DNA of 62,595 nucleotides. It comes from Chromatiaceae bacterium (GTDB lineage: Bacteria > Pseudomonadota > Gammaproteobacteria > Chromatiales > Chromatiaceae). Position 1 is the stretch's first letter, and each line of letters begins with the position of its first letter. The stretch covers positions 28,942 to 91,536 of the forward strand of contig JACDZG010000011.1 of NCBI GenBank assembly GCA_013426805.1, read 5' to 3'. Position numbers and translations under genes: made by a program. Below, piece after piece: positions 4,276 through 36,099 of the stretch. The notes under the pieces were generated by a model that saw only the letters and a program-made list of their open reading frames with translations, had not been told where the DNA came from and searched no databases.

Positions 4276-5397
4276 TCAGCTGAGTGCTCGCGGTATCCGG
4301 AACGGCAGCAGCGTTTGCACCCAACGCGTGCTGAACCGGTCGAGGCACACGCTCTCATGCATCGCGGTCACCGGCTCGCCGAGCACATGCGTCGCCAGCA
4401 CGGACCGCGTATAAAATGGGGTGTTCTCCAGCGTTTTGGTCACGCGCGCAGTGCGTTGCGGGTCCACCCGCGTGCCGCGCGTCAGCAGCCAGGCCGTGGT
4501 CGGCAACTTGACGTGCGGGGGCACCTCGAACGGCTCCACGCCGCCGGTCGGATCAAAGCGCAGACCCAGCAGTGGCCTCGCCCCGTCGCGCTGCGTCACG
4601 TCATACAGAACGGTCGTGCCGCCATCCTTCATTGCCGCGCGCGACCACTCCCAACGCTGGAACGCCGACTCCAGCGGGGCGTCGCCCCAGTTGGAATCGA
4701 GGTATCCGCTGCCCGACCAATGCAATGACGGCCGGTCGAGCTTTACCTCCACGCGCGCGCACGGGGCGATCGCCGCCCAGTAATGATGCCCCGCGTTATC
4801 GAGGCGATACGGCTGGCCGACCACCGCGCGCGGATAGACCCGTACCGTGCCGCGGAGGCGCGTGGGCAGCGGCATCGTCACTTCGTCGATCCGGATGGTC
4901 AGGCTGGTGCCGTCCCAGTGAAGCGCACTCGGCCCGATCTCCAGCCAGGAGGCGTCCCGCCGCAGCGCCGAGCGACCCCGCTCGGTCATGCTCCAGCGCT
5001 TGACCTCGCCGTAAAGTGCAACATTCAGCGAGTTATGGTCCAGCGGATCGCTGTCGCCGCGTCGCCGCGCCCAGGCGTAGTAGGGGGAAAAGCAACTACC
5101 GACCTGCGCGATCAGCGTGATCCCATGCCGCCCGTCGTCGCTGAGGGCATCGATATACCACCAGAGATAGCCACCCGGTGCGACCGGCGCGTCGAAGCGC
5201 GGGCCGTAACCACGCTCGCTACCGCCAACCAGACTGACATCGCCGCCAGTGCCTCCCCCGGCCCCGGGTGCACACCGCTCGCCGTGAGGGGATGTCTCCG
5301 CTTGAACCGCGTGGGCGTTGTGACGTTCATCGCCTCCGGTCGGCCGGGAACCGTCAGCCCGAAATGCTCCAGGTAGCACGAAGTCTGTTACTCGCAT
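4276..5397 (-). CDS. crtC: Carotenoid 1,2-hydratase CrtC
   Basis: 373-residue enzyme that adds water across the C1-C2 double bond of acyclic carotenoids such as neurosporene or lycopene. Family features include PGGYLWWY near residue 75, DNAGHHYW in the middle and SGSGYLDSNWGD further on. The ATG at 5397 is chosen because GGAGATG precedes it closely; the open frame further upstream covers the neighbouring DUF2269 gene in another frame. It sits 35 bases behind that gene on the same strand and probably shares its transcript. In purple bacteria crtC usually overlaps the end of crtD; here crtD is about 21 kb away and carries only a crtC fragment behind it. Confidence 0.92.
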   Translation of the reverse strand: MRVTDFVLPGAFRADGSRPTGGDERHNAHAVQAETSPHGERCAPGAGGGTGGDVSLVGGSERGYGPRFDAPVAPGGYLWWYIDALSDDGRHGITLIAQVGSCFSPYYAWARRRGDSDPLDHNSLNVALYGEVKRWSMTERGRSALRRDASWLEIGPSALHWDGTSLTIRIDEVTMPLPTRLRGTVRVYPRAVVGQPYRLDNAGHHYWAAIAPCARVEVKLDRPSLHWSGSGYLDSNWGDAPLESAFQRWEWSRAAMKDGGTTVLYDVTQRDGARPLLGLRFDPTGGVEPFEVPPHVKLPTTAWLLTRGTRVDPQRTARVTKTLENTPFYTRSVLATHVLGEPVTAMHESVCLDRFSTRWVQTLLPFRIPRALS

Positions 5398-5432
5398 TAC
5401 ACCATCTCCGTTGCGGTAAAGGACCCTTGGCG

Positions 5433-5906: not shown

Positions 5907-6520
5907 GGTCGACGTTCACCGCGTGTAATAGAGGACAGAAGGGTGCCGCCCGAGGGGCGCTGACGCAGGCGTTGTTGTCCGCGATCTGTGTCGGTTTTAC
6001 TCGGAAAACACACCGTAGGACTGGGCCAAAAATGGACAACAGTGGCGCAATTGTAGCAACGCAGATGCGCGCGGTATAGTTTTTCTCACCGCGAGGCAGG
6101 TGCGCTGTGCCCATCTGTTGCGGTTAAGGCTAGCTCGCAGACGCGAGCTGTTGTTGACTTTTCGTGACCGCGCCGGCGCTTCACTGAAAACCTTAATGCG
6201 GCTACGCTACATCACCGTTTGTCAAGCAATGACACGGTGAGCAAAGCGATGCGGTATATCACTCATTTGCGGTTCAGAGCGAATCATGACTGGTCGTTGT
6301 ACGAATGGACAGCGCGCACCAGGAGTGCCATGACGTCTCACGATAGGTGTCGTGCCATAATTGAGCGCGTCCGCCGTAGCAAAAACGGGCGGCAGTCAGC
6401 ATCCTTGTGCTAAAGTCGCGCCCCGCGAAGATCGGACACGGACCCGTTGGGATTTTTGCTTCGGCGATGGCCGCAGCGGTATTGGGCTGTGCAGATCGGT
6501 CAGACATCAGGAGGCATATT
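5907..6520. other. Divergent intergenic region, no gene seen
   Basis: About 600 bases between the divergent DUF2269-crtC unit and the NAD(P)-binding protein. It must hold both promoters. A hairpin with 7-base arms AGCTCGC/GCGAGCT is at 6132-6149. No TGT-N12-ACA repressor site was found, unlike at the other carotenoid promoters. Short frames here look random. Confidence 0.5.
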
Positions 6521-7213
6521 TTGAAAGTCGTTGTTTTCGGCGCGACCGGCAAGGCCGGACGCGCGGCGGCCCTGGCCCTGCTCGCCGCGGGACATCAGGT
6601 CACCGTCTTTGGACGCCATCCGGCGAAACTCCCCCCGCATGAGGGTATTTCCAGGATCGTGGGCGATGCCATGAACGCCGCCGAGGTGGCGCCCGCGGTG
6701 ACCGGTCAGGACGCTGTGCTGGTCAGCCTGGGCGATCCCGTCAACCCCGTACTCCTGCGGCTGGGGGCCAAACGAACCACCGCTCCCAACATTTGCGAGG
6801 TCGGCACGGCCAACGTGATCGCCGCGATGACGGCCGCCTCGGTCAGGCGGCTGGTCTGCATCACATCCTACGGCGTCGGCGACACCCGCGGCCGGTTGTC
6901 GTCACTGTACCGGATGGGGTTCCGCATGCTGCAACTGGACGAGCAGTTGGCCGACAAAGAACGGCAGGAGCAGCTGGTCAAGGCCAGCGGCCTTGACTGG
7001 ACGCTGATCCAGCCGGTTGGCTTCACCGACGGCGCCGCCACCGGGCGCTGGCTGGCCAGTCCAACGGGCGACCGGCGCAAGCGGACGGTCAGCCGGGTCG
7101 ATCTCGCGGCCTTCATCGCCGACACCGTGACCAGTGGCCGCCATGTGCGGGAGACGGTCGTGTTTTCGGGGCTGACCATAGCGGAAAGCGAATTTGCGGA
7201 GCAGGCGTCTTAA
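6521..7213 (+). CDS. NAD(P)H-binding atypical SDR (NmrA/SDR_a5-like)
   Basis: 230-residue oxidoreductase-like protein with an N-terminal Rossmann motif VFGATGKAGRAAA and the atypical SDR pattern (ITSYGVG in place of a standard active site, then DWTLIQPVGF). The start is TTG at 6521, chosen because a perfect AGGAGG (6509-6514) sits six bases before it and the Rossmann strand begins at once. Such proteins bind NAD(P)H and act as reductases or redox sensors; the substrate cannot be told. It is monocistronic and convergent with the next SDR. Confidence 0.75.
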   Translation: MKVVVFGATGKAGRAAALALLAAGHQVTVFGRHPAKLPPHEGISRIVGDAMNAAEVAPAVTGQDAVLVSLGDPVNPVLLRLGAKRTTAPNICEVGTANVIAAMTAASVRRLVCITSYGVGDTRGRLSSLYRMGFRMLQLDEQLADKERQEQLVKASGLDWTLIQPVGFTDGAATGRWLASPTGDRRKRTVSRVDLAAFIADTVTSGRHVRETVVFSGLTIAESEFAEQAS

Positions 7214-7286: not shown

Positions 7287-8216
7287 TCACGCGAACCTCA
7301 CCCCGGCCAGTCGTTCCGATGTCTCCCAGAGACGGGCGGCGGCGGCGGTGTCCAACGCCCGGGCAGGCACCTTGGCCGGGCCCGGCGGACCCTTGAGCTC
7401 GAACCACCCCGAGGGTCCGTAAAACCCGCCGCCTCGTGCATCCGGCGATGTCGCGGCGAACAGGATCGGCAATGCGGCCGGCCCGGCCGGCGGGCTGAGC
7501 GGCAGCAGGAACGGCTTCGCGATCCGCCAAAACGCCGCTCGCAAGCCGCGCGCGGCGAGCCCGTTGCTGATAATGTCAGTGCGGGCCCAGCCCGGATGAG
7601 CCGCCATGCCATCGACTCCCCAGCCGGCGGCCGCGCTGCGGCGCTGGAATTCCAATGCCAACATGAGCATTGCCAACTTCGTCATGCCATAGGCCCGGAA
7701 CGGGACATAAGATCGTTGCGACTGCAGGTCGGTGAGATCAATCGAATCCAGACTCGCAGCCAGGCTGCTGAGGTTGACCATACGAGCGCCGGGTGCGCGC
7801 CGCAGCAGCGGTAGCAGCCGGGCCGTGAGCGCAAAATGACCAAGATAGTTGGTGGCGAACTGCAGTTCGAAACCGTCGACCGTCAATTGCCGTTCTGGTG
7901 GCGCCATGAGCCCGGCATTGTTGACCAGGAGGTCGATACCACGTCCCGCGGCGAGCATCGTCTCCGCAAAGGCGGCAACCGAGGCGAGCGAGGCGAGGTC
8001 GAGCCGCTCAAAGCGCACTGTTGCACCAGGATGGGCGGCGCGCAGGCGTGCCAAAGCATTAGCGCCCTTGTTGTCGTTGCGGGCCGCCAGCACGACCTCG
8101 GCACCCGCTGCCGCCAGCGCGAGTGCCGTCTCGTAACCGAGCCCGCCGGTTGCCCCGGTGATGACGGCAAGCCGCCCACGTTGCGACGGAATGTTGACGG
8201 TTGTCCAGCCTGTCAT
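7287..8216 (-). CDS. Short-chain dehydrogenase/reductase, retinol-dehydrogenase-like
   Basis: 309-residue classical SDR: cofactor motif TGATGGLG near residue 22, NNAG near residue 98 and the catalytic Tyr/Lys in YGMTK, preceded by a conserved Ser (NLSS). The domain pattern resembles eukaryote-like retinol/protochlorophyllide-type reductases, which act on large hydrophobic ketones or alcohols. With carotenoid genes on both sides, an isoprenoid substrate is possible but unproven. It is separated from the convergent 6521 gene by 73 bases. Confidence 0.8.
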
Positions 8217-12116: not shown

Positions 12117-13433
12117 TCAATCAGCCTTAGCGCCAAAGGCGTCAATCGCGGCATGCAGCTCCGCATGGTCCGAAGCCTGTTGCTCGATACTGACGCCTTT
12201 GACAATGGCATCCCACGCCTGGCGCAGACTTGCCGCTCCAGCGGTCGGGCCCTGTGGGTGAGCGAAGACGCCCCGTCCGGGAATGAACCCGAAATCCACA
12301 TGGCCCACTCGGCGATAAACGCCATCCAAGGTGCCGGCCCAATCACTGCCACCCGGGATCGGCAGGCTTGGCGCGATGCCGCCCATGGGCGCGAGGCAAG
12401 CCGCAACGCCGTCCAGAACTTCGCTTTCATCCATCCCCATACGGGCGCCGAATCCAGGCATCACGATCGCATCCAACCCCGCCAGACGCTGGAGCTTATA
12501 GATGACCTTGGAATGAATGCCATAGACCGGCGACCGGCTGCAGGACGCGATCATCGAGAAGTGCCCGACCAGCGGCACCCTGCTATGCCGGCTGAGCATC
12601 CGCACCGCGCTCAGCCCCACCGGCATCGCATTCACCATCAGGAGGTTGGCGCCATTGGCAACCGCGAGGTCATGCAGATCGCATAGCCGATCCACTTCAT
12701 CGGTGATGTTTGCAAGGTAGCCTTTCCTGACACCAGTCACCTCCTCCGCCCGACGTCGCGCCTGCCCCAACAAGGCAGAGCGCTCGGCCAACGGGCACCA
12801 GGGGGCATCGGCCAGCATCTCATCGTCTTTGGCGACGTCAAGCCCTCCCAGCCAGCCCTGATATCCCAGTTCGGCGAAGGGCTCAGGAGGCAAGCCGATG
12901 TTAGGCTTGATGACCCCGAAGAAGATCGGACGTCCATGAACGCCGAGCAAGTCCCGAATACCTGCAATACCAAACCGCGGCCCGGTGAATTCCGCCAAAA
13001 AAGACGGCGGCAAGCGAATATCCATCAGCTTGATCACGGGTATCCCGGGGACGAAAAATACGCCCTCACCGACCACCGCCGACAGCAAGTTGGGGATGCG
13101 CGGACCAAAGTTGCCATGGGGGTGAGCGATGGTGACGGTACAGACGCAGACCTCCCCCCGGCCTTGCGGCTGCGCACTCGCCCCGAGCGTCAGACTCGGA
13201 GCGGACTGTCGACGCTCCACCCGCAGTTCCAACACTTTGGCGGCAAAGCGCGCCCGAAAATCCTCGTCGATCCCGACCCGGTGCCATTGCGCGGTCGACT
13301 GTTCGCTGCACAGGTGGGCCGCGGCGATGCGCGGATCCCCATAACACTCGAAACGATAATCCAGTTCAATCGCGGACGCTGGATCGTAATCGGCGCGGTT
13401 CAGAAAGAACCCTTCGCTGTCTGTCGGTGTCAT
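12117..13433 (-). CDS. RuBisCO-like protein (form IV)
   Basis: 438-residue member of the RuBisCO superfamily that is probably not a carboxylase. By eye, IKPN replaces the catalytic IKPK (second lysine lost). [10 protein letters not shown] keeps the lysine that is carbamylated in true RuBisCO and the acidic metal ligands. The His-Arg pair reads GHFSM (Arg lost) and loop 6 reads HSKVIYK. Form IV proteins act in methionine salvage/sulfur metabolism or an MTA-to-isoprenoid shunt; some of unknown role occur in phototrophs. The ATG at 13433 is used because the longer frame runs into yjbQ. It is third in an idi-yjbQ-RLP string. Confidence 0.85.
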
Positions 13434-13465
13434 ATCAGGAGATGCCCGATTGCCTGTGCGTTGAC

Positions 13466-13891
13466 TTAGCTGCCAAGAAACTGGGCCAGAATCCTGCGCT
13501 CGGAGCGCGGACCATCCAGTTCGATAAAGAACACGGACTGCCATCCACCCAGCATCAGTTTCCCACCAGAGATCGGGATGGTCTCAGTGGCATTCATGAA
13601 CAGCCCCATCAGATGCGCGTGCGCATTGTCCCTACCGTCTACAGGCGCTCTATTGTGAAGATAGTCGCCACGCTGGGGCACCAGATCGCTCAGGTACTTG
13701 ACCATATCCCGTTGCAGCATCTCCTCGCGTTCATTGAGATTGACGTGCGCGGTCGTATGCGGGGAAATCAAGGTGACCAGGCCGTCTCGAATTTCTGCTT
13801 TCTCGAGGGCATGCTCTACATCAGCGGTGATATCGATCACCTGGATCGGATCAAGCGTGGCCACGGAAATCTGTTGGAGGATGATCTTCAT
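13466..13891 (-). CDS. yjbQ: YjbQ/UPF0047 family protein
   Basis: 141 residues, the normal length for this family. The conserved core is [11 protein letters not shown] near residue 44, then HNR and NAHAHLMG, and [22 protein letters not shown] near the end. YjbQ proteins form small trimers, and in E. coli one has weak thiamine-phosphate synthase activity; the cellular role is unsettled. It lies between idi and the RuBisCO-like gene with gaps of about 60 and 32 bases, all on the same strand. Confidence 0.88.
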
Positions 13892-13951: not shown

Positions 13952-14533
13952 TTAATCTTCCAGAGGGTCGTCGAACACACGCTCAGCGATAAGCCGAAAC
14001 CAGGGCGTGAAGAGATCCGGCGATACTCTGACAGCGCGCCTGACCGCACCGACCGAAATCCAGCGCCAGGCTCCAACCTCCGCCGGATCGGGTCGGGGTT
14101 CGCCGACAAAACGCCCGCGAAACACATGCAGATACTCGTGCTCAACTAATCCGGAAAGCGGGTCCGCAGCCCGGTAGGTCAACTGCATCTGCTCGGTCAA
14201 GGGTGCATGAAAACCCAGTTCCTCACCGAGTCGACGTAACGCGGCACGCGCTGTCGGTTCGTCCGGGCGTGGATGTCCGCAACAACTATTCGACCACTGC
14301 CCCGCAAAGTGATATTTGGTGTCGGCTCTGCGCTGTAACAGCAGGTCACCGCCCGCATTGAAGATAAAAATAGAGAAAGCGCGGTGCAGCAAACCGCGCC
14401 GATGAACATCCAATTTGTCGCCGTCTCCGATTGCGTGGTCCTGGTCATCCACCAGGATGACCCGCTCCAGCGCATCCTGCCGGGCGACGCGTGCTGAACC
14501 TTCGCTCGAATACGAGACGATCGCTGCCTTCAA
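13952..14533 (-). CDS. idi: Isopentenyl-diphosphate delta-isomerase, type 1
   Basis: 193-residue Nudix-fold enzyme that interconverts IPP and DMAPP, feeding GGPP for carotenoids and the bacteriochlorophyll tail. Visible motifs include HRAFSIFIFN, the active-site cysteine segment WSNSCCGHPRP and GEELGF in the Nudix box, then EHEYLHVF. The TTG at 14533 is chosen because GGAG stands eight bases before it and the family length fits; the longer frame upstream crosses the puf terminator. It follows pufA2 by 200 bases on the same strand. A hairpin between them suggests separate or only partial read-through expression. Confidence 0.92.
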   Translation of the reverse strand: MKAAIVSYSSEGSARVARQDALERVILVDDQDHAIGDGDKLDVHRRGLLHRAFSIFIFNAGGDLLLQRRADTKYHFAGQWSNSCCGHPRPDEPTARAALRRLGEELGFHAPLTEQMQLTYRAADPLSGLVEHEYLHVFRGRFVGEPRPDPAEVGAWRWISVGAVRRAVRVSPDLFTPWFRLIAERVFDDPLED

Positions 14534-14680
14534 CTTGTCATCTCCGCTCGAATCAACCGCCGGATCCGATTCCAGAGAAAAACGAGACCTACGCGCGGTA
14601 AACAATCCATCGCAAGCCACCATCGGGCTGAAAAAAGCTGTGGCAAAACACCCGAACATTCTGTAACCGCACTCGCAGAA

Positions 14681-14715
14681 GGGCCGGCCAAGTCGTTTCC
14701 GAGCATGGCCGGCCC
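14681..14715 (-). terminator. Hairpin ending the puf operon
   Basis: Arms GGGCCGGCCA (14681-14690) and TGGCCGGCCC (14706-14715) form a perfect 10-bp stem with a 15-base loop, 19 bases behind the pufA2 stop. It is GC-rich but lacks a long T-run. It sits between pufA2 and idi. Confidence 0.6.
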
Positions 14716-14733
14716 ATACCGCAAGCGAAACCC

Positions 14734-14913
14734 CTAACGACGGATGGCCGCAGGCGGATTCGAGATGATCGGCTTCGCGTAAGCGGTGTCGAGCCAATTG
14801 AAGTTGGCGGTGCTGAGCAGAATGAAATGAATCAACAGGCCCAACACGGCGAGAAAGCCAAAGAGCGCAATCAAAGCACGACGGGGATCGAAAAGATGCC
14901 AGATCTTGTACAT
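14734..14913 (-). CDS. pufA2: LH1 antenna alpha polypeptide, second copy
   Basis: 59 residues with one membrane helix; His29 in GLLIHFILL binds bacteriochlorophyll and a Trp lies 11 residues later (NFNWLD). It is almost identical to the first copy through the helix up to SNPP, then ends after five more residues (AAIRR), so it lacks the long Ala/Pro tail of copy 1. It follows pufB2 by 44 bases. Duplicate pufBA pairs behind pufC are known in other Chromatiaceae. Confidence 0.93.
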
Positions 14914-24590: not shown

Positions 24591-25763
24591 TCAGCAGCGC
24601 GCGACGAGGAGGCGCGTCATCATCGGTCGACGCGTCGCGACCTCCTGCACCCGGCCGAAACCGGCGCGCTTGAGCATCGCCGTCAATTCCGCGCACGTGC
24701 GTGGGCGCCCGCTGCCCATGGCCAACAGATAAAAACCGAAGTAAGCCTCACCGATCGGCTCGGCGCCGGGGGTATCGGACATGGGCTCGGCCAGGATCAG
24801 GGCACCATCGGGCGGGAGGGCTCGTCGCGCGGCAGTCAGAATCGCTTGTGCCGGCGCGTCATCATGGTCATGGATGACCCGCACCAAAGAGATCAGGTCC
24901 GCGTCGGTGGGCAGGGGATCGCGCAACAGGTCGCCGCCGATGGCCTGTGAACGCGCAGTCAACCCCGCTTGAGCGAACCGGGCTCGGGCCTGTTCGGCCA
25001 CCGACGGCAAATCGAAGAGACGCAGCTCCAGATGTGGCCAGCGCGCCGCGGCCGTGGCCAGGAAGGTGCCATTGCCACCGCCAAGATCCAGCAGACAGCG
25101 ATGCCCGCGCATCGGATAGGCGTCGAGAATATCGCCGCCGACCAGACCCTGAGAGTCGGCCATGAGGGCGGTATAGTCGTCGATGCTGCTGGTCGCCAAC
25201 TGATTCGGCTCAGCGGTCGACGCATAGGCCCAGTAGGCACCCAGGCCGGTGGCGCGGGCGCCGCGCAGCAACCCCACGGGATCGCTCAGGTCGCGGTACA
25301 GCATGGCATGATGGCGCACCATTGCGGCGATCCCCGGATTACCGCGCAGGGCCGCCCCCAGTTCGCCCAGACCGAAGTGATCCGCCCCGCAGCGCTCGAC
25401 CAGACCCAGGGATTCCGCCGACTTGAGCAGACGCAGCGCCGCCGGCTCGGGAAGGCCCAGGCGTTTGGCCAACTCGCCAAGCGGCACGGGACCGTCGGCC
25501 AGCAGGTCAAAGAGACCCAGTTCGATACAGGCAAACAGGATCTGCGAATAGACAAATCCCGCAATCAAATCGAAGAGCGCGCGCGCGCGTCGCCGGGCAA
25601 CCGGGCGTGTCAGCGGAAAGCCCGAGGCCAAACGCTGGAAGCGCGGCGAAGCCAGGATGCGATTGCGCAGGATCAGCCAACGGCGGTGCAGACGCATGGA
25701 CATGGTCGGCAAGGCCGGTGGCCCCGCGTTATCCTCATTCACCGGGACAGTTGATGAGCTCAT
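24591..25763 (-). CDS. crtF: Hydroxyneurosporene/rhodopin O-methyltransferase CrtF
   Basis: 390-residue SAM-dependent enzyme that methylates the tertiary hydroxyl made by CrtC. It has an N-terminal winged-helix dimerisation region (about residues 65-125) and the SAM motif LLDLGGGNGTFL near residue 220, with the later VIHDHDD catalytic region. Its ATG overlaps the crtE stop (ATGA). It depends on the product of CrtC, whose full-length gene lies about 19 kb away. Confidence 0.94.
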   Translation of the reverse strand: MSSSTVPVNEDNAGPPALPTMSMRLHRRWLILRNRILASPRFQRLASGFPLTRPVARRRARALFDLIAGFVYSQILFACIELGLFDLLADGPVPLGELAKRLGLPEPAALRLLKSAESLGLVERCGADHFGLGELGAALRGNPGIAAMVRHHAMLYRDLSDPVGLLRGARATGLGAYWAYASTAEPNQLATSSIDDYTALMADSQGLVGGDILDAYPMRGHRCLLDLGGGNGTFLATAAARWPHLELRLFDLPSVAEQARARFAQAGLTARSQAIGGDLLRDPLPTDADLISLVRVIHDHDDAPAQAILTAARRALPPDGALILAEPMSDTPGAEPIGEAYFGFYLLAMGSGRPRTCAELTAMLKRAGFGRVQEVATRRPMMTRLLVARC

Positions 25764-26629
25764 GCCGCAAGTCTCGCGAGTTCTTCCGGCAAGATCCGCC
25801 GGGACTCGCCGGCGATCAGGGCCTGGAGGGCGGCCGCGCCTTGGCAGGGCGGGATGGCATCGGTCGCGCTGGCCACCAGTTCCTTGAGTCGTCGCACGGC
25901 ACCGGCGACGCCGAGTTCCTGGACCGCATTGGGCCGTCCCAACGAGCTGTCACGCCCCAGCGGCTTGCCCATTTCGCGGGTCGAAACGACGGCATCGCCC
26001 AAGTCATCCGCAACCTGGTAGGCTTCGCCCAGGCGTTCGCCGACCAGCCGCCAGGCCTCGGTCGGCGCACCAACGGACTCGGCCCCGGCCACGGTCGCCG
26101 CGACAAACAGCGATCCGGTCTTGGCACGGTGATAATCAGCCAGGTCCACCTCGGTCTCGCACTCCCAAGCCTGACCGGCACAGATGCCGACCGGTGCGCC
26201 GGTGCACCGCGCAACCGTTGCCATGACCCGGCTCACCTGCAGCGGGGCCGCTTCGATGCGCCGGCCCAGAACCTCGAAGGCGAGGACGATCAGGGCATCC
26301 CCGGCCAGCACCGCCAGGCGCTCTCCATAGGCGCAATGGACCGACGGCCGGCCGCGGCGCAAGGTGGAGTCATCGAAGCACGGGAGGTCGTCATGGACCA
26401 GGGAGGCGCAGTGGAGGAGCTCGATGGCCGTGGCAGCGGCGTTCGAAGTCTGCGGATCGGTATCGCCGCACGCCCAGGCGACGGCCAGACAGAGGCGCGG
26501 GCGCACCCGGGCGCCGCCCGGAAACACCGCGTACCGCAGGGCCTGGGCGAAGCCGGGCGGACAGCCCGGCCCCTGGGCGGTGATAATTGCCGCTTCCAGC
26601 GCCTGTTCGATACGCTGTGTAGGATCCAT
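25760..26629 (-). CDS. crtE: Geranylgeranyl diphosphate synthase CrtE
   Basis: 289-residue prenyltransferase that makes GGPP, shared by carotenoid and bacteriochlorophyll-tail synthesis. The first aspartate-rich motif is VHDDLPCFDD near residue 85 and the second is VADDLGDAV near residue 215. The ATG at 26629 follows GAGGGG; the longer frame upstream would cross the operator region. It heads the crtEF-bchCXYZ-puf line and is divergent from crtD. Confidence 0.95.
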   Translation of the reverse strand: MDPTQRIEQALEAAIITAQGPGCPPGFAQALRYAVFPGGARVRPRLCLAVAWACGDTDPQTSNAAATAIELLHCASLVHDDLPCFDDSTLRRGRPSVHCAYGERLAVLAGDALIVLAFEVLGRRIEAAPLQVSRVMATVARCTGAPVGICAGQAWECETEVDLADYHRAKTGSLFVAATVAGAESVGAPTEAWRLVGERLGEAYQVADDLGDAVVSTREMGKPLGRDSSLGRPNAVQELGVAGAVRRLKELVASATDAIPPCQGAAALQALIAGESRRILPEELARLAA

Positions 26630-26666
26630 GATCGAGCCCCTCTGTGGGATGGGTCTGAACGAGTGT

Positions 26667-26710
26667 TGTATTTGTAGGTTGACACTCTTGTGTGTCATGT
26701 AAAATAGACA
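26667..26710. promoter_or_regulatory. Double CrtJ/PpsR-type operator between crtE and crtD
   Basis: Two exact TGT-N12-ACA dyads: TGTATTTGTAGGTTGACA (26667-26684) and TGTCATGTAAAATAGACA (26693-26710). Their centres are 26 bp apart. A TTGACA (26679) and TAAAAT (26700) for crtD are embedded in them, with a short 15-base spacer. Tandem sites allow cooperative repression of both divergent operons. Confidence 0.78.
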
Positions 26711-26728: not shown

Positions 26729-28252
26729 ATGGATTTCCCTTCAATGACAGATCTCAGATCAACAAAACAAGTGATCGTCGTCGGTGCCGGCATCGGCGGC
26801 CTGGTGAGTGCCATCGAACTGGCGGCCCGCGGCGTTGCGGTGACGCTCTGTGAGCGGGCACCGACCCCCGGCGGCAAGATGCGGGAGGTCCCCGTGGGCA
26901 CGGCGCGGCTGGATGCCGGTCCGACGGTCTTTAGCATGCGGTGGGTTTTCGAGGAAGTGTTCGCGGCCGCCGGGGCTCAACTGACGGATCACCTGACCCT
27001 CAAGCCGGCGGAGATCCTGGCCCGACATGCCTGGGAGGATGGCACCCGCCTGGACTTGTTTGCCGACCGCGCCCGTTCGGCAGAGGCGATCGCCGCCTTC
27101 GCCGGTCCGGCCGAGGGCCGCCGGTACCTGGACTTCTGCACCGAGGCGCAGGGCATCTATCAAACCTTGAGGGACCCTTTCATCCGTGGCTCTCGCCCCT
27201 CCCTGGCTGTTCTGATGGGGCGCGTGGGTCGCGGCGGACTCGGCGGTCTGTTGAAGATGAACCCCTATGCCACCCTCTGGTCGGTGCTGACCAAGCGCTT
27301 CACCGACCCGCGACTGCGTCAGTTGTTCGGACGCTATGCCACATACTGCGGCTCATCGCCCTTTCTCGCTCCTGCCACCTTGATGTTGATCGCCCACGTC
27401 GAGCAGGAGGGGGTCTGGTTGGTGGAGGGCGGCATGCACCGCCTCGCCCAGGTCCTCGCCGACCTGGCGACCGGACTGGGCACGCGGCTACGCTATGGGG
27501 CTGAGGTGGCGCAGATCCTGGTCAAAGGCAAACGGGCGATCGGTGTTCAGCTCGTTGGCGGCGAGGAACTGACTGCCGATGCGGTCGTGTTCAACGGGGA
27601 CGCGCAGGCGCTCCCCGCCGCGCAGCTCGGCAGCGCGGTGCGCCGTGCCGTACCCGCCGCCGGCCGGTCGGCCCGTTCGTTGTCGGCACTGGCCTGGAAT
27701 CTGGTCGCGCCGACCGCGGGCTTTCCGCTGGTACGGCATAGCGTCTTTTTTTCGGATGCCTACCGGCAAGAGTTCGATGAGATTCTCACCGCCGGGCGGC
27801 TGCCCACGAAACCGACCGTTTACATTTGCGCCCAGGATCGCGACGATCACGATCATTGGACGCCTGGCGTTCCCGAACGGCTCCTGTGCCTGGTCAATGC
27901 CCCGGCAAACGGCGACTCACACCCCTACTCCCCGACCGAGGTCGAGCAATGTGCGCAACGCGCCTTCTCTCTCCTGAGCCGCTGCGGGCTCGAGATCCAG
28001 CGAGAGCCGGGGAGCACCCTGGTCACCACCCCGGCGGACTTCGCCCGACTGTTTCCGGCCACCGGGGGGGCGCTCTATGGCCGAGCCTCCCACGGGTGGA
28101 TGGCCTCGTTCAACCGGCCGGGGTCGCGGAGCGCGATACCGGGGTTGTATCTGGCCGGGGGGAGTACCCATCCGGGGCCCGGGGTGCCGATGGCGGCACT
28201 CTCGGGGCGCTTGGCAGCCTCGTGCGTGCTGGCGGACCTCGGTTCGACCTGA
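26729..28252 (+). CDS. crtD: Methoxyneurosporene/hydroxy-carotenoid dehydrogenase CrtD
   Basis: 507-residue FAD enzyme of the CrtI family that introduces the 3,4 double bond into 1-hydroxy carotenoids. The motif VIVVGAGIGGLVSAIEL begins near residue 15 and LYLAGGSTHPGPGVPMA near the end. It is assigned to CrtD, not CrtI, because of its place opposite crtE and because a separate CrtI is present. Either ATG 26729 or ATG 26744 could be the start. Its last codons overlap, in another frame, the beginning of a crtC remnant. Confidence 0.92.
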   Translation: MDFPSMTDLRSTKQVIVVGAGIGGLVSAIELAARGVAVTLCERAPTPGGKMREVPVGTARLDAGPTVFSMRWVFEEVFAAAGAQLTDHLTLKPAEILARHAWEDGTRLDLFADRARSAEAIAAFAGPAEGRRYLDFCTEAQGIYQTLRDPFIRGSRPSLAVLMGRVGRGGLGGLLKMNPYATLWSVLTKRFTDPRLRQLFGRYATYCGSSPFLAPATLMLIAHVEQEGVWLVEGGMHRLAQVLADLATGLGTRLRYGAEVAQILVKGKRAIGVQLVGGEELTADAVVFNGDAQALPAAQLGSAVRRAVPAAGRSARSLSALAWNLVAPTAGFPLVRHSVFFSDAYRQEFDEILTAGRLPTKPTVYICAQDRDDHDHWTPGVPERLLCLVNAPANGDSHPYSPTEVEQCAQRAFSLLSRCGLEIQREPGSTLVTTPADFARLFPATGGALYGRASHGWMASFNRPGSRSAIPGLYLAGGSTHPGPGVPMAALSGRLAASCVLADLGST

Positions 28253-28317
28253 GCGTCGAACCCGGCGGCTTTCTTTGGTGGCACGTCGCCGCGCTGAGCG
28301 CCGACGGGCACCACAGT
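28234..28317 (+). pseudogene. crtC fossil: 28 codons behind crtD
   Basis: In the frame shifted from crtD, bases 28234-28317 read GPRFDLSVEPGGFLWW then HVAALSADGHH. The intact CrtC in this window reads GPRFDAPVAPGGYLWW then YIDALSDDGRH at the matching place, with the same spacing throughout. No more of the hydratase follows: the frame stops at once and the DUF2868 gene begins at 28326. crtC normally overlaps the end of crtD, so this is the remnant of a deleted crtDC arrangement. Confidence 0.82.
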
Positions 28318-28325
28318 TGTGAGCC

Positions 28326-30470
28326 ATGAAGCCGATGCCATCACCCCTCCCGGAAGATCTGGACGAGACCGCGAACGACGGGGCGGACCGCTGGACGGTC
28401 GCGGACCTGATCGACCTCGAACATTACCTTGGCGCCGACGAATCGACCCTGCGCGAACAACCAGCCGCACGGCAGGTGCTGACCGAACGCGACCGCTCCC
28501 TCTATTTAGATGCAATTGCTCCGGCGGTCGCCCCGGCGCAACCGCACAGCGCCGAGCACCGACGCCGCAGCCTCTTATATTGGCTGCGCGCCCGCCGCGC
28601 CGCGGAGGATCCGGAACAGCGTTTGCTGTTGCCCGGCAGCACCTTCGCACAAGCGCAGCGACTGGCTACCCTGGCCTTGATCACCGTCGGGTTCCTACTC
28701 GGCGTCGGCGCCGCATCTGCCCTGCTGAGCTATGACGGCCACCGACCGATCAATGTCACCTGGTACATCTTTCTATTGGTGGTGGTGCAGTTACTGCTGA
28801 TCGCGACGGTATTGGGCGCCTGGCTGGTCCGTCGCTCACGGTCCGTCGGCAGGACGGTACAGGATCTCACCCTGTTGGGACGGCTGATCCGACCGCTGAT
28901 CATGCGGATCAACCGCTGGCTGCAACAGCAGCGCCTCGGCCACGGCAGGCGGGAGCTGCGTGATCAGTCCGCGGCGCAGATCGGACGGCTGCGCTCACAG
29001 TACGCGCTCTATGGCCCCGTCTCTTACCTGCCGGCCTTGATCCCGGCCCAGGTTTTCGGGGTGGCGTTTAATCTCGGCGTGATCCTGACGACCATTGCGC
29101 TCGAGTGGTTCACCGATCTCGCCTTCGGCTGGGGATCCGCGCTGGACCTGAGCCCGCAGTTCATCTACGACCTGGTTCGCACCTTCGCCTGGCCCTGGGG
29201 TTGGCTCTTTGGCGAGGGCGTCGGCTATCCGACGCTCGACCAGATCGCCGGCTCGCGGATCAACCTCAAGGACCCCCTGTTCCTGCTCGACGCCTCGCAC
29301 CTACGCTCCTGGCGTTGGTTCCTGGTGCTCTCGGTGTTCACTTATGGGCTACTGCCGCGGCTGTTGCTGCTCGCCGCGTCTGTCATCACCCAACGCCACC
29401 TGCTTGAACGGCTGCCCTTTACTCAAGGCCGTATCCAGGCACTCTACGCCCGCTTGCTCACCCCGACAGTGGAGACCGCCACCCACGGCAGCGGGCACGG
29501 CCCGGAGATGCCCATCCCGGCACCGATTGCCCACCGCGGCCCGGTGGCAACACCCATTGCCTGGAGTGCGACCCCGACGCCTGTGGCCAAGTCGCCCTCA
29601 AGCCCGACGGCACCGCCGGCCGATGCCGCGGCAGTGACCCTGAGCGCGGAGACGCAAGCGCAACCCGTGGCACGGGTGCCGGATTCGCCAACCCCACCGA
29701 AGCAACCGGTCGCTCCCTCGCCAATACCGGAACCTGCACCGGCGCCTGGAGCGACCCAAGTACCAGAGTCCACCAAGGAGGGACGGGTGCCGGTCCCGTA
29801 TCCCGAGTCGGAACCCGAGCTTGAGGCTAACCCGGAACCCAAGCCCGAGGCTGAAGCGGAACCTGAGCCCGAACCTGAGGCTGTGCCGGCGTCCGAACGG
29901 GACCCGGCATCGACGGCAGAACCTGGGTTTGAGCCCCAGCCGCAGCCCGAACGCATTCCAGACCGGGAACCAAAGCCGCTGCCGTCCAGCGGCGACGCGG
30001 CTCCCGGCGGCATTGCCGCTGACGCCTGTCTGCTGCTGATTCAACTGGACGTGGATGAGATCATCGAGGATCAGGATCGACCCCGACTGGCCTCACTGCT
30101 CGCGCGTCTGGCCGGTTGGCGGGTCGCCGCGTCGGCGTCGTTCGGTTCGGGCCGCGCGATGACCGCCGGGGTCGTGAACTGGGTCGCCGAACAGCGCTGG
30201 CAAGCGCCGCCGGCGCGGGTCGCCATCATCATGGATGGGTCCCAACCGCCGATCACCGAGAATCTGGGCTTCCTGCGCGAGCTGCGCGCGGCCGCCGGCA
30301 CCCAGGCGCAGATCCTGCTTGCCCTGGTCGGCGACCCCCAGGACGACGATGCGCTACCACCGGTGCGAACCTTCGACTTCATCGATTGGCAGCGCAAGAT
30401 CGACCAACTCGCGGATCCCTACCTGCGGCTGGAGATGCTGGTCCCGGCGAGTGACGCAGGAGGAGCATGA
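28326..30470 (+). CDS. DUF2868-type membrane protein with P/E-rich linker
   Basis: 714 residues. The first part (1-390) has about five to six hydrophobic segments (for example near 125-150, 160-180, 245-265 and 340-360) and matches the DUF2868 family by character and by its partner gene. Residues 400-560 are a low-complexity stretch full of Pro, Glu and Ala with many EP repeats. The last 150 residues form a soluble alpha/beta domain (LLLIQLDVDEII..., VAIIMDGSQPP). Its TGA overlaps the ATG of the GTPase (ATGA). DUF2868 and DUF3482 genes usually occur as a pair; the function is unknown. Confidence 0.72.
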   Translation: MKPMPSPLPEDLDETANDGADRWTVADLIDLEHYLGADESTLREQPAARQVLTERDRSLYLDAIAPAVAPAQPHSAEHRRRSLLYWLRARRAAEDPEQRLLLPGSTFAQAQRLATLALITVGFLLGVGAASALLSYDGHRPINVTWYIFLLVVVQLLLIATVLGAWLVRRSRSVGRTVQDLTLLGRLIRPLIMRINRWLQQQRLGHGRRELRDQSAAQIGRLRSQYALYGPVSYLPALIPAQVFGVAFNLGVILTTIALEWFTDLAFGWGSALDLSPQFIYDLVRTFAWPWGWLFGEGVGYPTLDQIAGSRINLKDPLFLLDASHLRSWRWFLVLSVFTYGLLPRLLLLAASVITQRHLLERLPFTQGRIQALYARLLTPTVETATHGSGHGPEMPIPAPIAHRGPVATPIAWSATPTPVAKSPSSPTAPPADAAAVTLSAETQAQPVARVPDSPTPPKQPVAPSPIPEPAPAPGATQVPESTKEGRVPVPYPESEPELEANPEPKPEAEAEPEPEPEAVPASERDPASTAEPGFEPQPQPERIPDREPKPLPSSGDAAPGGIAADACLLLIQLDVDEIIEDQDRPRLASLLARLAGWRVAASASFGSGRAMTAGVVNWVAEQRWQAPPARVAIIMDGSQPPITENLGFLRELRAAAGTQAQILLALVGDPQDDDALPPVRTFDFIDWQRKIDQLADPYLRLEMLVPASDAGGA

Positions 30471-31906
30471 TGGTGCTCGAGATTCCCAGACTGGCCATCA
30501 TGGGCCACCCCAATGCGGGCAAGTCCTCGGTCGTCGCAACGCTGACCGAGAACGACCGCATCGCAATCGACAAGCGGGCCGGAACCACGACCGAGTCCGA
30601 TGTCTACCCGGTCGTCATCGATGGCCAGATCGTCATCGAGTTCATCGATACCCCGGGCTTTCAAAACCCCAGTGCGATCCTGGAATGGTTCCAACTCCAC
30701 GGGGGCCAGTCGGATTTGGCCGCGGCCTTCGTGTCGGCCCACCGGAACAATCCGCTCTTCGCCCACGACTGCGCCTTGCTCGAACCGGTCGCGGCCGGGG
30801 CCGGCATCATCCTGGTGGTCGACGGCTCCAAACGCATCAAAGAGAAAGACCGCGTCGAAATCGAATTATTGCGCCTCACCGCGCGCCCGCGCATGGCGAT
30901 CCTCAACAACCTGACCAGGCAGAGCCGTCACCTGGAGCAGTGGCAGAACACCCTGAGCAAAGGATTCAATTCGGTTCGCGAGTTCAACGCCCACCGGGCG
31001 ACCTACGCCGAGCGCATCAAGCTCCTCAATGCGCTCAAAAGCATCGATCAGCGCTGGGAGCAACGCCTGGAGCAGACCATCGACGCCTTCGAGCGGGACT
31101 GGGAGCGACGCACCGATCAGGCCGCCACCACCATCCTGGACCTGCTGCGGGAGGCCCTGGCCTTCCGCTACACCGAATCCGTCAAGAATAACAAGCTCGT
31201 CTTCCAGAGCGGGCGGGACCAGGTCAAGGCCGAGGTGATGGCCGCCTTCGAAGACGGCTTACGCACCCTGGAGATCAAGGCCCAGGAACAGATCCGCGCC
31301 AATTTTCACCACAACGTCTGGAATGTGTCGGCGGACTCGATCCTCGGTCGTGATCTGCTCTCAGAGGACGTCAACAAGACACTGGGCATTTCCAAGCGCC
31401 AACTCGCCATGGTGGGTATGGCCACCGGGGCCGCCTCCGGAGCCGCCATCGATCTCGTGGCGGCCGGGAGCTCGCTGGGTGCGGCGGCCTTCCTCGGAGC
31501 CGCGGCGGGCGGCATGCTGGGCCTCATGGGGGGAACCGCCCTGGCCAAGCTCGACATTGAAAAGGCCCACGGTACCCAGCGTTTTACGGTGGGCCCGGTC
31601 TCCAACCCCCGGTTCCCGTTCGTCCTGCTCGATCGCATCATCCTGTACAGCGCCCGCGCCATGAACTGGGCGCATGGACGTCAGGCCGCCGACGAGGAGG
31701 CACCGGATAAGGTTCCTGACAAAGACCTCCCTGTCAAAGGCTTTTCCGAGGCACTGACCGCCCAACAGCAACGCGAACTGGCACGGTTTTTCAGCGCCGC
31801 ACGACGCGGCAAGGTGTATGAGCGCGAAGACCAGTGCCGGGACATCATCAAGGGAGTCCTGCGCGACGTTGCGGAAAGCCGCATCGACAGCCGGGCCGAC
31901 CTGTAA
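30467..31906 (+). CDS. DUF3482-type GTPase
   Basis: 479-residue protein with an Era/Der-like G domain: P-loop GHPNAGKSS near residue 12, switch threonines in RAGTTTESD and DTPG near residue 61. The C-terminal half is DUF3482-like, with a Gly/Ala-rich hydrophobic stretch (about 305-355) that may contact the membrane. It probably works with the DUF2868 membrane protein encoded just upstream. Such pairs are widespread in proteobacteria and uncharacterised. Confidence 0.8.
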   Translation: MMVLEIPRLAIMGHPNAGKSSVVATLTENDRIAIDKRAGTTTESDVYPVVIDGQIVIEFIDTPGFQNPSAILEWFQLHGGQSDLAAAFVSAHRNNPLFAHDCALLEPVAAGAGIILVVDGSKRIKEKDRVEIELLRLTARPRMAILNNLTRQSRHLEQWQNTLSKGFNSVREFNAHRATYAERIKLLNALKSIDQRWEQRLEQTIDAFERDWERRTDQAATTILDLLREALAFRYTESVKNNKLVFQSGRDQVKAEVMAAFEDGLRTLEIKAQEQIRANFHHNVWNVSADSILGRDLLSEDVNKTLGISKRQLAMVGMATGAASGAAIDLVAAGSSLGAAAFLGAAAGGMLGLMGGTALAKLDIEKAHGTQRFTVGPVSNPRFPFVLLDRIILYSARAMNWAHGRQAADEEAPDKVPDKDLPVKGFSEALTAQQQRELARFFSAARRGKVYEREDQCRDIIKGVLRDVAESRIDSRADL

Positions 31907-32506: not shown

Positions 32507-34315
32507 CTAGATGAGCGTCTCCTGCACACCGCCGGGAGCGGGATCGATGCCGAGGGCCTCGTAGATCGCCAACTGGTCCGGGTCCGCCCGGGTCGCCTTG
32601 CGGATGTGCAGCGTGCGCCCGTCCCCGTGGCGAATGCTCGCGGTCACCCGGCACTGACCCGCGAGGGTCTCGCGCAAGGCTTGCCAACTCAGGTCGCGAC
32701 CCTTGAGCATAAGGTGATGACGAATGATCTGCACGACTTGGTAGGCCAACACTGAAACAAACAGATCGGCGGCGCCACAGGTCTCGCCTCGCCGCTCGGC
32801 CCACGGTGCACCGAGCACGGGAGTCAGGCTGCTGAACACCGCCTCCCGCCCGGTCAGCGCGCGATAAGCACGGAACAACTGCTGCGCATCCCACGCATTC
32901 TCGCTGCTGCGCAGACAGTAAACTGCCGCCCGGACACGCGGGTCAGCGGCGCTCGGCTGACGCTCCCACGACAATCCGACCGCATCGGCGCCGCTCGCAT
33001 CCGTGGTGAGCGTGATTCGATAATGCCGGCCGATCGCACCGCTGCGCTCCTGCAATCGCAGGATGCGTGCGTTGAGCAGGTCCAGGCCCCGGTCCCCCCC
33101 GGGCGTGGCAAGACCGGCAGCAAGACGCGCCAGGCCCGCCTCAAGGCGCAGGGTTCGACGCGCGACGAGCGCGTCTTCCTTGGCCTGGAGGTCCGGGGCA
33201 TGGGAATACAGAAACACCTCCGGCCCATCCGTGCTCGCCACCCGGTACAGCTCCAGTGTGCCGTGCACCGTCTGCACCTGAGTCGAACAATCCCGACAAA
33301 GCGCCGGGGCCCGCTCCCCCGCCACCACCAGATAGCGGTATCCGTGCGCCCTCAACCAGGCGAGATTGACCGCGTCGGCCGTGCTTCGATCGATTGCCAC
33401 CAAGGCACCAACAGGGGCACCAAGCCGATCAAGCATCGTGCCGAGCGATGATCCATCGACAACCTGACGATGGAAACTCAAAGAGCGACGGATGAAACCA
33501 CTCTGGTCGAGCACCAACCCCAGGGTCGTCGCGCCAGGACCATCAGGGCTCAAATCCGTCGGGTGCTGCGGCCAATCCTTGGTCGCACGTCCCAGCGCCT
33601 CCCCACGACAGGTCTGGCTCAGGTCGTAGATCGGCTCCGCCGCGGGTTCTTGAACGCGTTCGAGCACCCGCGTAAACAGCTGGGACTCTAAGGCGCTGCG
33701 ATATTTCAGCAGATTGTCCTCTACGCGAAAGAGCACCCAGGGGGTCAAGGCCGCGACATCAATCCCGAGGAGTTCGCCGATCGCACTGCGCTCGCCCCAG
33801 GCCGCAAGCGCTCCGGGCGCCGTTCCAGGAGTCGCCAGACGCGCCACCACCATTGCTGCCGCCGCCGCGACCTGACGTTCCGGCATCCCCAGTCTGCGCA
33901 GTTGATCGCTCAATCCCAGCCTTCCAATGGCCCACAAGGCGACGTGCTCGACCCCCACCGACTGCGCCCGCACCAGATCCAGGGACGCGACCTCGACCGA
34001 CGCCAAGGCTCCGTCGTCACCGTGCGGCCGTGACCGCGCTTCACGCGCCAGCAACAGTGCCGCCAGCCGCTGCGCCTCACGCTCGACGACCTGATCGCAC
34101 CCAGGTCCGGTCGAGACCACCCGACCGGCGAGGATCTCCTCAATGCGCCCACACAGGGTCTGCCACAGATCCGGACTCAGAACGAAATGTTGGCCCAAAT
34201 TCAACAGCGTCACCTGTCGTACCCGACCCCCGACCCGCTCGCTGCGCACCAAACGATGGCTGTAGTAATGCTCCCCGGTAGGGAGCGAACGGGTGAGGGT
34301 GCGACGGATATACAT
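32507..34315 (-). mobile_element. IS1634-like transposase
   Basis: 602-residue DDE transposase of the IS1634/IS4-like type. Its N-terminus (RRTLTRSLPTGEHYYSHRLVRSERVGGRVRQ) and the central acidic region VDGSSLGTMLDRLGAPVGALVAIDR are typical. The ATG at 34315 (MYIRRTLTR) is used because the upstream extension has no family character. The frame is intact. I could not find terminal inverted repeats or a target duplication by eye, so the element ends are not defined. Confidence 0.78.
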
Positions 34316-34578
34316 CGATATACAGTGCACCGACGACCGGACGGAATCAAGGTCTGGCGACAAGAACCCGATAGAAAAGAACGGGATCCAGACAACCGAC
34401 CCGCCGCTCCGTCGTGGCATGATGATCCGCGACAACCACCGCACCGATTCGTAAACCCCCTTTACAAATCCCTATTGCGTCATTCTCTTAACACTTCAGA
34501 CGGCCCGCCGTTTCCGTATTATGGCACTACGGCAGCGCAACCCATTATGGCACTACTCATCCGATGTGTAATTTTCGT

Positions 34579-34610
34579 TTGACATTTCTATCTGTCAGGC
34601 TAAGATGACA
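34579..34610 (+). promoter_or_regulatory. Promoter/operator of LH2 cassette 1
   Basis: TTGACA (34579-34584), 16-base spacer, TAAGAT (34601-34606). The exact TGT-N12-ACA dyad TGTCAGGCTAAGATGACA (34593-34610) covers the -10. The cassette 2 promoter has the same dyad and spacing. A leader of about 140 bases precedes the first pucB. Confidence 0.8.
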
Positions 34611-35110: not shown

Positions 35111-35201
35111 TCGTACCGGCTCTTTGCGTCTCGGCGACGCCACTGACTGAAAGTTGATGGCAAAGCCGCAGCGTAAAGAAAACCGAACGGAGGCCTACCC
35201 G

Positions 35202-35405
35202 ATGGCGGAACCGAGAATGGCCGATATGAAACCGGCCGCACCCAAAATGGCCGCACCTAAACCGGCCGCAACAAAGGTGAATGAGATGCTGACCCCAGAC
35301 CAAGCAAAAGAATTCCATGAGCAGTTCAAGGTGACCTACACCGCGTTCGTCGGTCTCGCCGCCGTCGCGCACCTGCTGGTCTTCGCTTCCAAGCCCTGGT
35401 TCTAA
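35202..35405 (+). CDS. pucB: LH2 beta polypeptide with extended N-terminus, cassette 1
   Basis: 67 residues. The last 39 are a normal LH2 beta (LTPDQAKEFHEQFKVTYTAF to KPWF). The first 28 are a low-complexity stretch of Ala, Pro, Lys and Met, with a KMAAPKPAA-like repeat. A GGAGG ribosome site six to eight bases before the ATG at 35202 supports the long form. An internal ATG at 35286, at the start of the normal chain and preceded by AGGTGA, could give a short form. Confidence 0.88.
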   Translation: MAEPRMADMKPAAPKMAAPKPAATKVNEMLTPDQAKEFHEQFKVTYTAFVGLAAVAHLLVFASKPWF

Positions 35406-35630: not shown

Positions 35631-36067
35631 CCGGGAGTGTGGCTGTGACGATGCTCGCAACGGGCATTGCGCAATCGCCTCCCGAGGTTAGCGGCAGAAA
35701 AACACCGAAAGGACTTCGGCGCCGCGAACCACTTTAGAGCTAACAGGGGCTCTCGTGACCGTCCCTTGATCCTTCATGGTCGTGCACCAAGAGGATCAGG
35801 GGATAGGTCCCCGCAAGGTACCGAAGCGCTTCCTTGCGTTTCGCTCCCCGCTTGAGGTGGCACCCCGTCACCAACCGCTCAATCAACCTGAAATTTCGGA
35901 TCGCCACGGATCGGAAGCACCCCGCGAAGCCAGCGAAAAGAGACAGGCGCCCTCGACAGCGATTTCAGAAAACACATCCGTCTAATTGATTTATAGTTCT
36001 TTTTTTGATGCTCTATTGTGCCTGGGCCAGCCGTGGACGATTTTTTCATCGCGAGTGTAGCTTTCGC

Positions 36068-36099
36068 TTGACATTCTCCCGTGTCAGGCTAAGATGACA
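36068..36099 (+). promoter_or_regulatory. Promoter/operator of LH2 cassette 2
   Basis: TTGACA (36068-36073), 16-base spacer, TAAGAT (36090-36095), and the same 18-base dyad TGTCAGGCTAAGATGACA (36082-36099) as at cassette 1. Between the -35 and the dyad several bases differ from cassette 1, so the dyad is conserved beyond its surroundings. Confidence 0.8.

Follow-up and report, generated by a model that had tools for sequence, protein, structure and literature searches.

The carotenoid gene crtD of a Chromatiaceae bacterium (NCBI GenBank assembly GCA_013426805.1) is followed by a DUF2868-GTPase operon, and the locus raises the question of what became of the crtC that overlaps the end of crtD in related bacteria. 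The window examined here, meaning the whole stretch of DNA analyzed, comprises 62,595 nucleotides of contig JACDZG010000011.1. The explanation favored, at a probability of about 0.82, is that a native crtC was deleted in place down to a stump, that a block carrying a second crtC was acquired, and that the two crtDC pairs then decayed reciprocally. Features are listed in Table 1. A RuBisCO-large-chain-like gene (12117-13544) and a NUDIX protein gene (13952-14797) also lie inside the photosynthesis cluster, and both are conserved in the three other sampled genomes of the genus (G035, G079, and G107).

Table 1. Features of the window, with positions counted from its first base.
Feature	Positions	Strand	Basis or remark
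crtC copy B, intact	4276..5205	-	5205 is the GPRFD start; the start codon may be different
C-terminal remnant of crtD (copy B relic) that extends into the crtC start	5193..5426	-	profile
DUF2269 membrane protein, 157 aa	5433..5906	-	Pfam PF10027
NAD(P)-binding protein (PF13460)	6407..7213	+	true start probably further in
Short-chain dehydrogenase (SDR)	7287..8216	-	block comparison
Probable crtF, methyltransferase	24591..25763	-	family matches below curated cut-offs only; order as in Thiocapsa bogorovii
crtE, divergent from crtD	25760..26698	-	by place and matching ORFs in G035, G079, and G107
TGTN12ACA site 1, crtE-crtD spacer	26667..26684	+	motif search
TGTN12ACA site 2, 26 bases on	26693..26710	+	motif search
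crtD copy A, intact	26729..28252	+	ORF; curated-family score
Open frame surrounding the stump, GTG, 35 codons, TGA	28222..28329	+	TGA at 28327-28329
crtC stump, codons 1-28 of the native crtD-linked crtC	28234..28317	+	alignment, tblastn, profile
DUF2868 membrane protein, presumed ancestral neighbor 3' of crtDC in the genus	28326..30470	+	Pfam; G079 comparison
GTPase with DUF3482	30467..31906	+	Pfam; genus comparison

The crtD gene itself is intact, scoring 712 bits against the NCBIfam CrtD model NF045637 (curated cut-off 580). The translation of 28234-28317, in a frame shifted relative to crtD, reads GPRFDLSVEPGGFLWWHVAALSADGHHS. Compared with 30 crtC starts, this stretch matched without gaps, agreeing at best in 20 of 28 residues and 69 of 84 bases, while none of 100,000 shuffled versions of the peptide reached 14 of 28 identities. 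The runner-up among 28-residue stretches in the six-frame translation of the window, with the intact crtC of the genome set aside, had 12 identities. A tblastn search of the whole genome with the crtC of one relative recovered the stump at E 6.7e-7 (70% over 27 residues), and a crtC profile built without the genome's own row recovered it at E 1.3e-6 when all six frames of the window were scanned; one shuffled and one reversed copy of the window gave no matches. A Pfam search of the stump gave no match. The DNA 3' of the crtD stop scored 68 against crtC, compared with a maximum of 29 in 200 shuffles, and thus the match is not accounted for by crtD coding. Likeness to linked crtC drops to background at about 28316 and the junction is sharp, with the next ORF, DUF2868, beginning at 28326. 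The segment is a well-supported remnant of the crtC of a crtD-crtC operon. What an earlier note had read from the sequence is borne out in these respects: a crtC fossil lies at the end of crtD and aligns to the crtC of relatives above chance, it overlaps the crtD stop in a shifted frame with unchanged spacing (28234 precedes the stop at 28252), and the rest of crtC is missing before an operon that begins eight bases on.

Base identities to the stump range from 54 to 69 of 84 for the linked type of crtC and from 52 to 58 for the types resembling the second crtC of this genome (copy B); these ranges overlap, so the stump was assigned to the linked type by its best matches and its place, its length being too short for placement in a tree. 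Sixteen intact CrtC agree at 12 positions of this stretch, and the stump departs from them at five (Y13, Y17, D19, D23, and G28), the G28 change being at the breakpoint, and all crtC codons after 28 are missing.

The ancestral crtDC overlap that the earlier note supposed to have been broken here is supported by relatives, in which an intact crtC overlaps the end of crtD at 24 of 30 crtD-type loci (21 read directly and three via coordinates). The remaining six are the present genome (G000) together with G028, G070, G031, G101, and G083; the "crtD" of okenone producers among the 30 loci is probably cruO or cruS rather than crtD. According to the gene table of PMC10892978, the order in Thiocapsa bogorovii is crtE, crtD, crtC. 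This order, also found in other spirilloxanthin-type Chromatiaceae, is identical to that of the present genome up to the stump, whereas here crtC ends after 28 codons and the DUF2868-GTPase operon follows. Apparent crtC remnants behind crtD in G070, G031, G101, and G028 were not counted, as the portion inside crtD was explained by crtD codons and the DNA past the crtD stop failed to exceed its shuffles, scoring 26 (shuffle maximum 28), 19 (30), 21 (29), and 20 (29), respectively. Likewise not counted was G083, with a score of 28 against a shuffle maximum of 27, where a 14-base match lay 125 bases past the stop and out of register. Among the four carriers of copy-B-type crtC in the family sample that have a full crtD, only the present genome has a significant crtC remnant behind it. 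The Pfam CrtC family (PF07143) was dropped as a guide to crtC since it matches 61 of 116 genomes but misses real crtC; in the present genome it marks a lipocalin-like protein adjoining an ABC transporter (G000:C89:15688-16200), and the real crtC has no Pfam match.

A broken crtDC pair is also known from another bacterium. Thiorhodovibrio frisius is described in the available part of PMC10609205 as having an elongated crtC at a site from which crtD is missing, with crtD elsewhere; there crtC survives, whereas the present window has both kinds of remnant in one cluster. The label of a relic is absent from that part of PMC10609205. In G028, a crtD C-terminal fragment precedes crtC (G028:C1:818061-819331; 47% over 114 residues, one TGA stop) and a full crtD is found elsewhere on the chromosome; the crtC of G028 may be the "elongated crtC" of T. 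frisius.

The stump is enclosed in a frame that remains open and ends exactly on the start of the next gene, its stop overlapping the ATG of DUF2868 (ATGA), and it might thereby couple DUF2868 translation to crtD. This suggests an alternative in which the stump is useful, acting as a 35-codon leader that ties translation of the GTPase operon to the crtD mRNA and its regulated promoter. Such a function would be in keeping with the two TGTN12ACA sites before crtD, which we take to be PpsR/CrtJ-type motifs and which are both also present in the crtE-crtD spacer of G079 and G035, and with the observation, made by eye, that in G079, G035, and G107 too the DUF2868 operon follows this promoter or what is left of it. 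However, the loss of five invariant crtC positions indicates that nothing maintains the stump as CrtC, no ATGA occurs at that place in G079 or G035, and the frame is known from one genome, so a leader function is considered unlikely. Near-identical tandem TGTN12ACA pairs with the same 26-base spacing were also observed at 34567-34610 and 36056-36099, and a short ORF behind the first of these pairs (35154-35405) reads like a putative light-harvesting peptide.

Under the preferred reading of the stump as debris of a native crtC deleted in place, the gene now behind it would be an old neighbor rather than an intruder, and comparison within the genus bears on this point. The DUF2868 and GTPase genes are present in all three other sampled genomes, where the GTPase is 80-82% identical and located on a contig of photosynthesis genes. 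In G079, 528 bases separate crtE from DUF2868 and the GTPase gene behind it, and this spacer (G079:C2:16728-17255) retains matches to crtD codons 77-112 (50%, E 1.1e-5) and to crtC codons from about 174 to 254 (profile E 4e-7 and 2.5e-4). This debris implies that the operon once stood behind a whole crtDC, and it favors deletion in place of the crtC of the present genome. Elsewhere in G079 crtC was not found and crtD matches were at the crtI level only, on which grounds pigment synthesis in G079 may stop at early carotenoids, lycopene for example. Read by eye, DUF2868 in G035 is preceded by the crtE-crtD promoter, complete with its two TGTN12ACA sites, and by a handful of crtD-like codons, and DUF2868 in G107 by what resembles a degraded version of the crtD promoter; in a profile search of these two genomes, matches to crtC or crtD were not significant (best E 0.4). 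The "native" crtC of G035, G079, and G107 was presumably of the linked type, and we conclude that loss of the native crtDC has gone further in some members of the genus than in others, with codons 29 to the end and the spacer removed in the present genome. No genome with an intact crtD-crtC-DUF2868 order was found. An ORF of 645 residues without a Pfam match lies at 32507-34444 on the minus strand, and pieces of it (45-63%) occur behind the GTPase operon in G079, as if decaying.

G107 fits Thiodictyon syntrophicum Cad16, an okenone producer according to the available part of PMC6374484. The okenone cluster of G107 resembles the present case in belonging to the same genus and in lacking the native crtDC before DUF2868, and differs in that okenone genes with their own crtC, not a DUF2269-type block, took the place.

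These comparisons also weigh on two further explanations of the junction. Insertion or translocation of the GTPase operon, replacing crtC, would produce a sharp junction, and beyond the genus the GTPase gene is not beside crtD in the rows compared, being on other contigs or far off; in G079, however, the operon follows crtD and crtC debris at the same place, and in G035 crtE adjoins the operon, which makes this explanation very improbable. An assembly artefact might be suspected in a draft genome of 349 contigs with 3.98% contamination, examined here at the level of the assembly, but G079 and G035 show this gene neighborhood as well, and invariant residues are missing from the stump, as expected of a dead gene, so that such an error is improbable. 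Of the "deletion or replacement" left open by the earlier note, deletion in place is thus favored by the G079 debris and by the promoter remains seen by eye in G035 and G107; its description of the GTPase operon as unrelated holds for function but not for origin, the same operon being found behind crtD and crtC debris in G079.

The present genome nonetheless has an intact crtC, copy B, which is the sole one detected by tblastn and is located in the same window, 23 kb from the stump. Copy B scored 275.6 bits against the CrtC model NF045922, below the curated cut-off of 400, as did a relative's crtD-linked crtC (299.7 bits), and the model therefore seems narrow; the identification of copy B rests on 55-62% identity to crtD-linked crtC. 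In a quick tree of 97 crtC rows (108 collected with identical rows dropped; none extracted from loci L165 and L176), copy B fell in a 13-row clade (SH-aLRT 99) apart from the crtD-linked Chromatiaceae crtC. This clade included Rhodoblastus and Acetobacteraceae (Alphaproteobacteria), Rhodocyclus and Rhodocyclaceae (Betaproteobacteria), and Chromatiaceae (Gammaproteobacteria). Among the matches listed in a genome scan, the nine nearest crtC loci were 72-82% identical to copy B and the next was 63%. The natural reading of this distribution is that copy B was acquired by horizontal transfer. That it is instead the old crtC, moved within the genome, might be suggested by the location of stump and copy B in one photosynthesis region; yet copy B begins with 28 codons of its own, only 58 of 84 bases of which match the stump (compared with 69 of 84 for the nearest linked crtC), and it groups with alpha- and betaproteobacterial crtC and has a crtD relic of its own, so a move is most improbable.

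The relic was recovered in a profile scan of the whole window with the genome's own crtD left out, as matches to positions 391-439 (E 3e-7) and 470-499 (E 0.02), and the crtD profile gave no match in the controls. The relic retains the HPGPG...AST end and merges with the start of crtC just as an intact overlapping pair would. The window consequently holds both crtD-crtC' and crtD'-crtC, and the stump and the relic, the latter likewise well supported, are reciprocal fossils within one window. The earlier note's picture of crtC loss thus stands for the stump and requires amendment in two respects: the genome does not lack crtC, having a copy of another clade 23 kb away, and the crtD relic before that copy had been overlooked. 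Using a profile that included the genome's own crtD, the same relic was found before the same crtC type at loci L119 (E 5e-16) and L111 (E 7.5e-13), and weakly at L113 (E 1e-4) and L112 (E 0.0016); L115 was doubtful (E 0.012), and no crtD relic was found before the copy-B-type crtC of L114, L116, L117, and L118. No genome with an intact DUF2269-crtD-crtC order was found.

Copy B belongs to a block of genes that recurs with it. Among the matches listed, DUF2269 (71-82%) lies beside the copy-B-type crtC at all nine nearest loci, as does the NAD(P)-binding gene (62-80%), and seven have the SDR (71-87%), L116 having a 36% relative and L117 none. None of these three genes was found near any other crtC in 71 loci compared; 70 of the 71, which vary in length and in which crtI can also yield such a match, had a crtD-like match at E 1e-5. 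The family sample contained 41 genomes with a crtC match, of which 39 were compared in full (G079, with debris, and G069, with a broken frame, were excluded). Eight of the 39, the present genome included, have a crtC 74-100% identical to copy B, compared with at most 61% in the other 31, and the same eight carry a DUF2269 of 74-100%, all other DUF2269 among the matches listed reaching at most 51%. A full crtD is present in four of these eight (G000, G031, G070, and G101), while G035, G049, G026, and G057 have crtI-level matches only; among eight genomes reached via the named loci, two have a full crtD (those of L113 and L119). Across 13 genomes of three genera, five had a crtC of 71-78% with the block DUF2269 and eight had a crtC of 55-57% without it (DUF2269 at most 50%). 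Nine more genomes of the Rhodoblastus genus, outside the 13 and searched for DUF2269 only, gave no DUF2269 match. The block is a well-supported conserved unit across Alpha-, Beta-, and Gammaproteobacteria.

The history proposed for the window begins with a native crtDC of spirilloxanthin type in the operon order crtD-crtC. A block of DUF2269, crtD, and crtC with the NAD(P)-binding and SDR genes would have arrived by horizontal transfer, followed by a period with two crtDC pairs in the genome. Deletion in place would then have removed the body of the native crtC, starting at roughly codon 29 and reaching the edge of the next gene, and would have joined crtD to its old neighbor, the DUF2868-GTPase operon; this loss would have been tolerable because the second block, as proposed, had already supplied a crtC. 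Decay would have been reciprocal, with the native crtD kept and its crtC lost, and the foreign crtC kept and its crtD reduced to the relic. What we infer from these remains is the sequence of events and the occurrence and direction of a transfer.

What the block does may be related to rhodopinal, a violet carotenoid made by Thiocystis violacea and Rhodoblastus. Rhodopinal has no 3,4 double bond, the bond that CrtD makes, and crtD would therefore be useless in such a block, which fits its decay there. Rhodocyclus gracilis DSM 110 and Rcy. purpureus are reported to contain rhodopinal and no spirilloxanthin, and Rcy. tenuis the spirilloxanthin series (available part of PMC8954225). The block DUF2269 was found in Rhodocyclus genomes of 2.9 and 3.6 Mb and is absent from one of 3.9 Mb, which has a 42% relative only; by size, these three fit gracilis, purpureus, and tenuis, respectively. 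Allochromatium warmingii is credited with rhodopinals and A. vinosum with spirilloxanthins (PMC3368242, in part), and one of eight Allochromatium genomes, that of A. warmingii, has the block DUF2269, which is absent from a 3.7 Mb genome that fits A. vinosum (3,669,074 bases). Block and rhodopinal would go together in all three Rhodocyclus, as identified by size, and in A. warmingii versus the vinosum-sized genome, a comparison of few phenotypes. Both okenone and rhodopinal are reported for Thiodictyon species in a 2023 review, which, in the part available, marks the genes and enzymes of rhodopinal as unknown (PMC10604819). Our literature search, thin on subscription papers, found no naming of rhodopinal genes and no tie of DUF2269 to carotenoids. 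From its distribution, the block may belong to rhodopinal synthesis and constitutes a candidate set for the rhodopinal genes.

The DUF2269 protein scored 62.6 bits against PF10027 (gathering score 28), and it is modelled as four long helices, the best of five models reaching a pLDDT of 85.5 and the others falling between 81 and 67. A fold search against solved structures returned mostly designed helical bundles (best E 0.096, none at E ≤0.001), and a sequence search of the PDB gave nothing useful (best E 0.4). A relation to HemJ was considered and dropped, no HemJ having been found in the present genome. The sole lead on DUF2269 chemistry comes from the membrane urate oxidase PuuD, the available part of PMC4562309 noting a distant similarity of DUF989 to DUF2269 (E 0.15, weak); the DUF2269 of the present genome differs in having no fused cytochrome domain, and no solved structure matched its model or profile. 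We give even odds to a combined interpretation in which a single change of pathway left behind both the stump and the relic, and in which the block (the special crtC, DUF2269, the NAD(P)-binding protein, and usually the SDR) holds the rhodopinal genes, with DUF2269 as the C-20 oxidizing enzyme. DUF2269 would then be a membrane enzyme that oxidizes the C-20 methyl group without oxygen and passes on the electrons in the manner proposed for PuuD; the dehydrogenases of the block would finish or reduce the aldehyde. With its crtD and probable crtF, the present genome may, judging by gene content, make both pigment series.

A lone gene stump is ordinary, whereas two reciprocal stumps in one photosynthesis cluster record the overwriting of a pigment operon by a foreign one, of which relatives display further stages of crtDC loss. 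Furthermore, on the few phenotypes known, the block tracks rhodopinal, and the question of the rhodopinal genes would become testable with about four genes.
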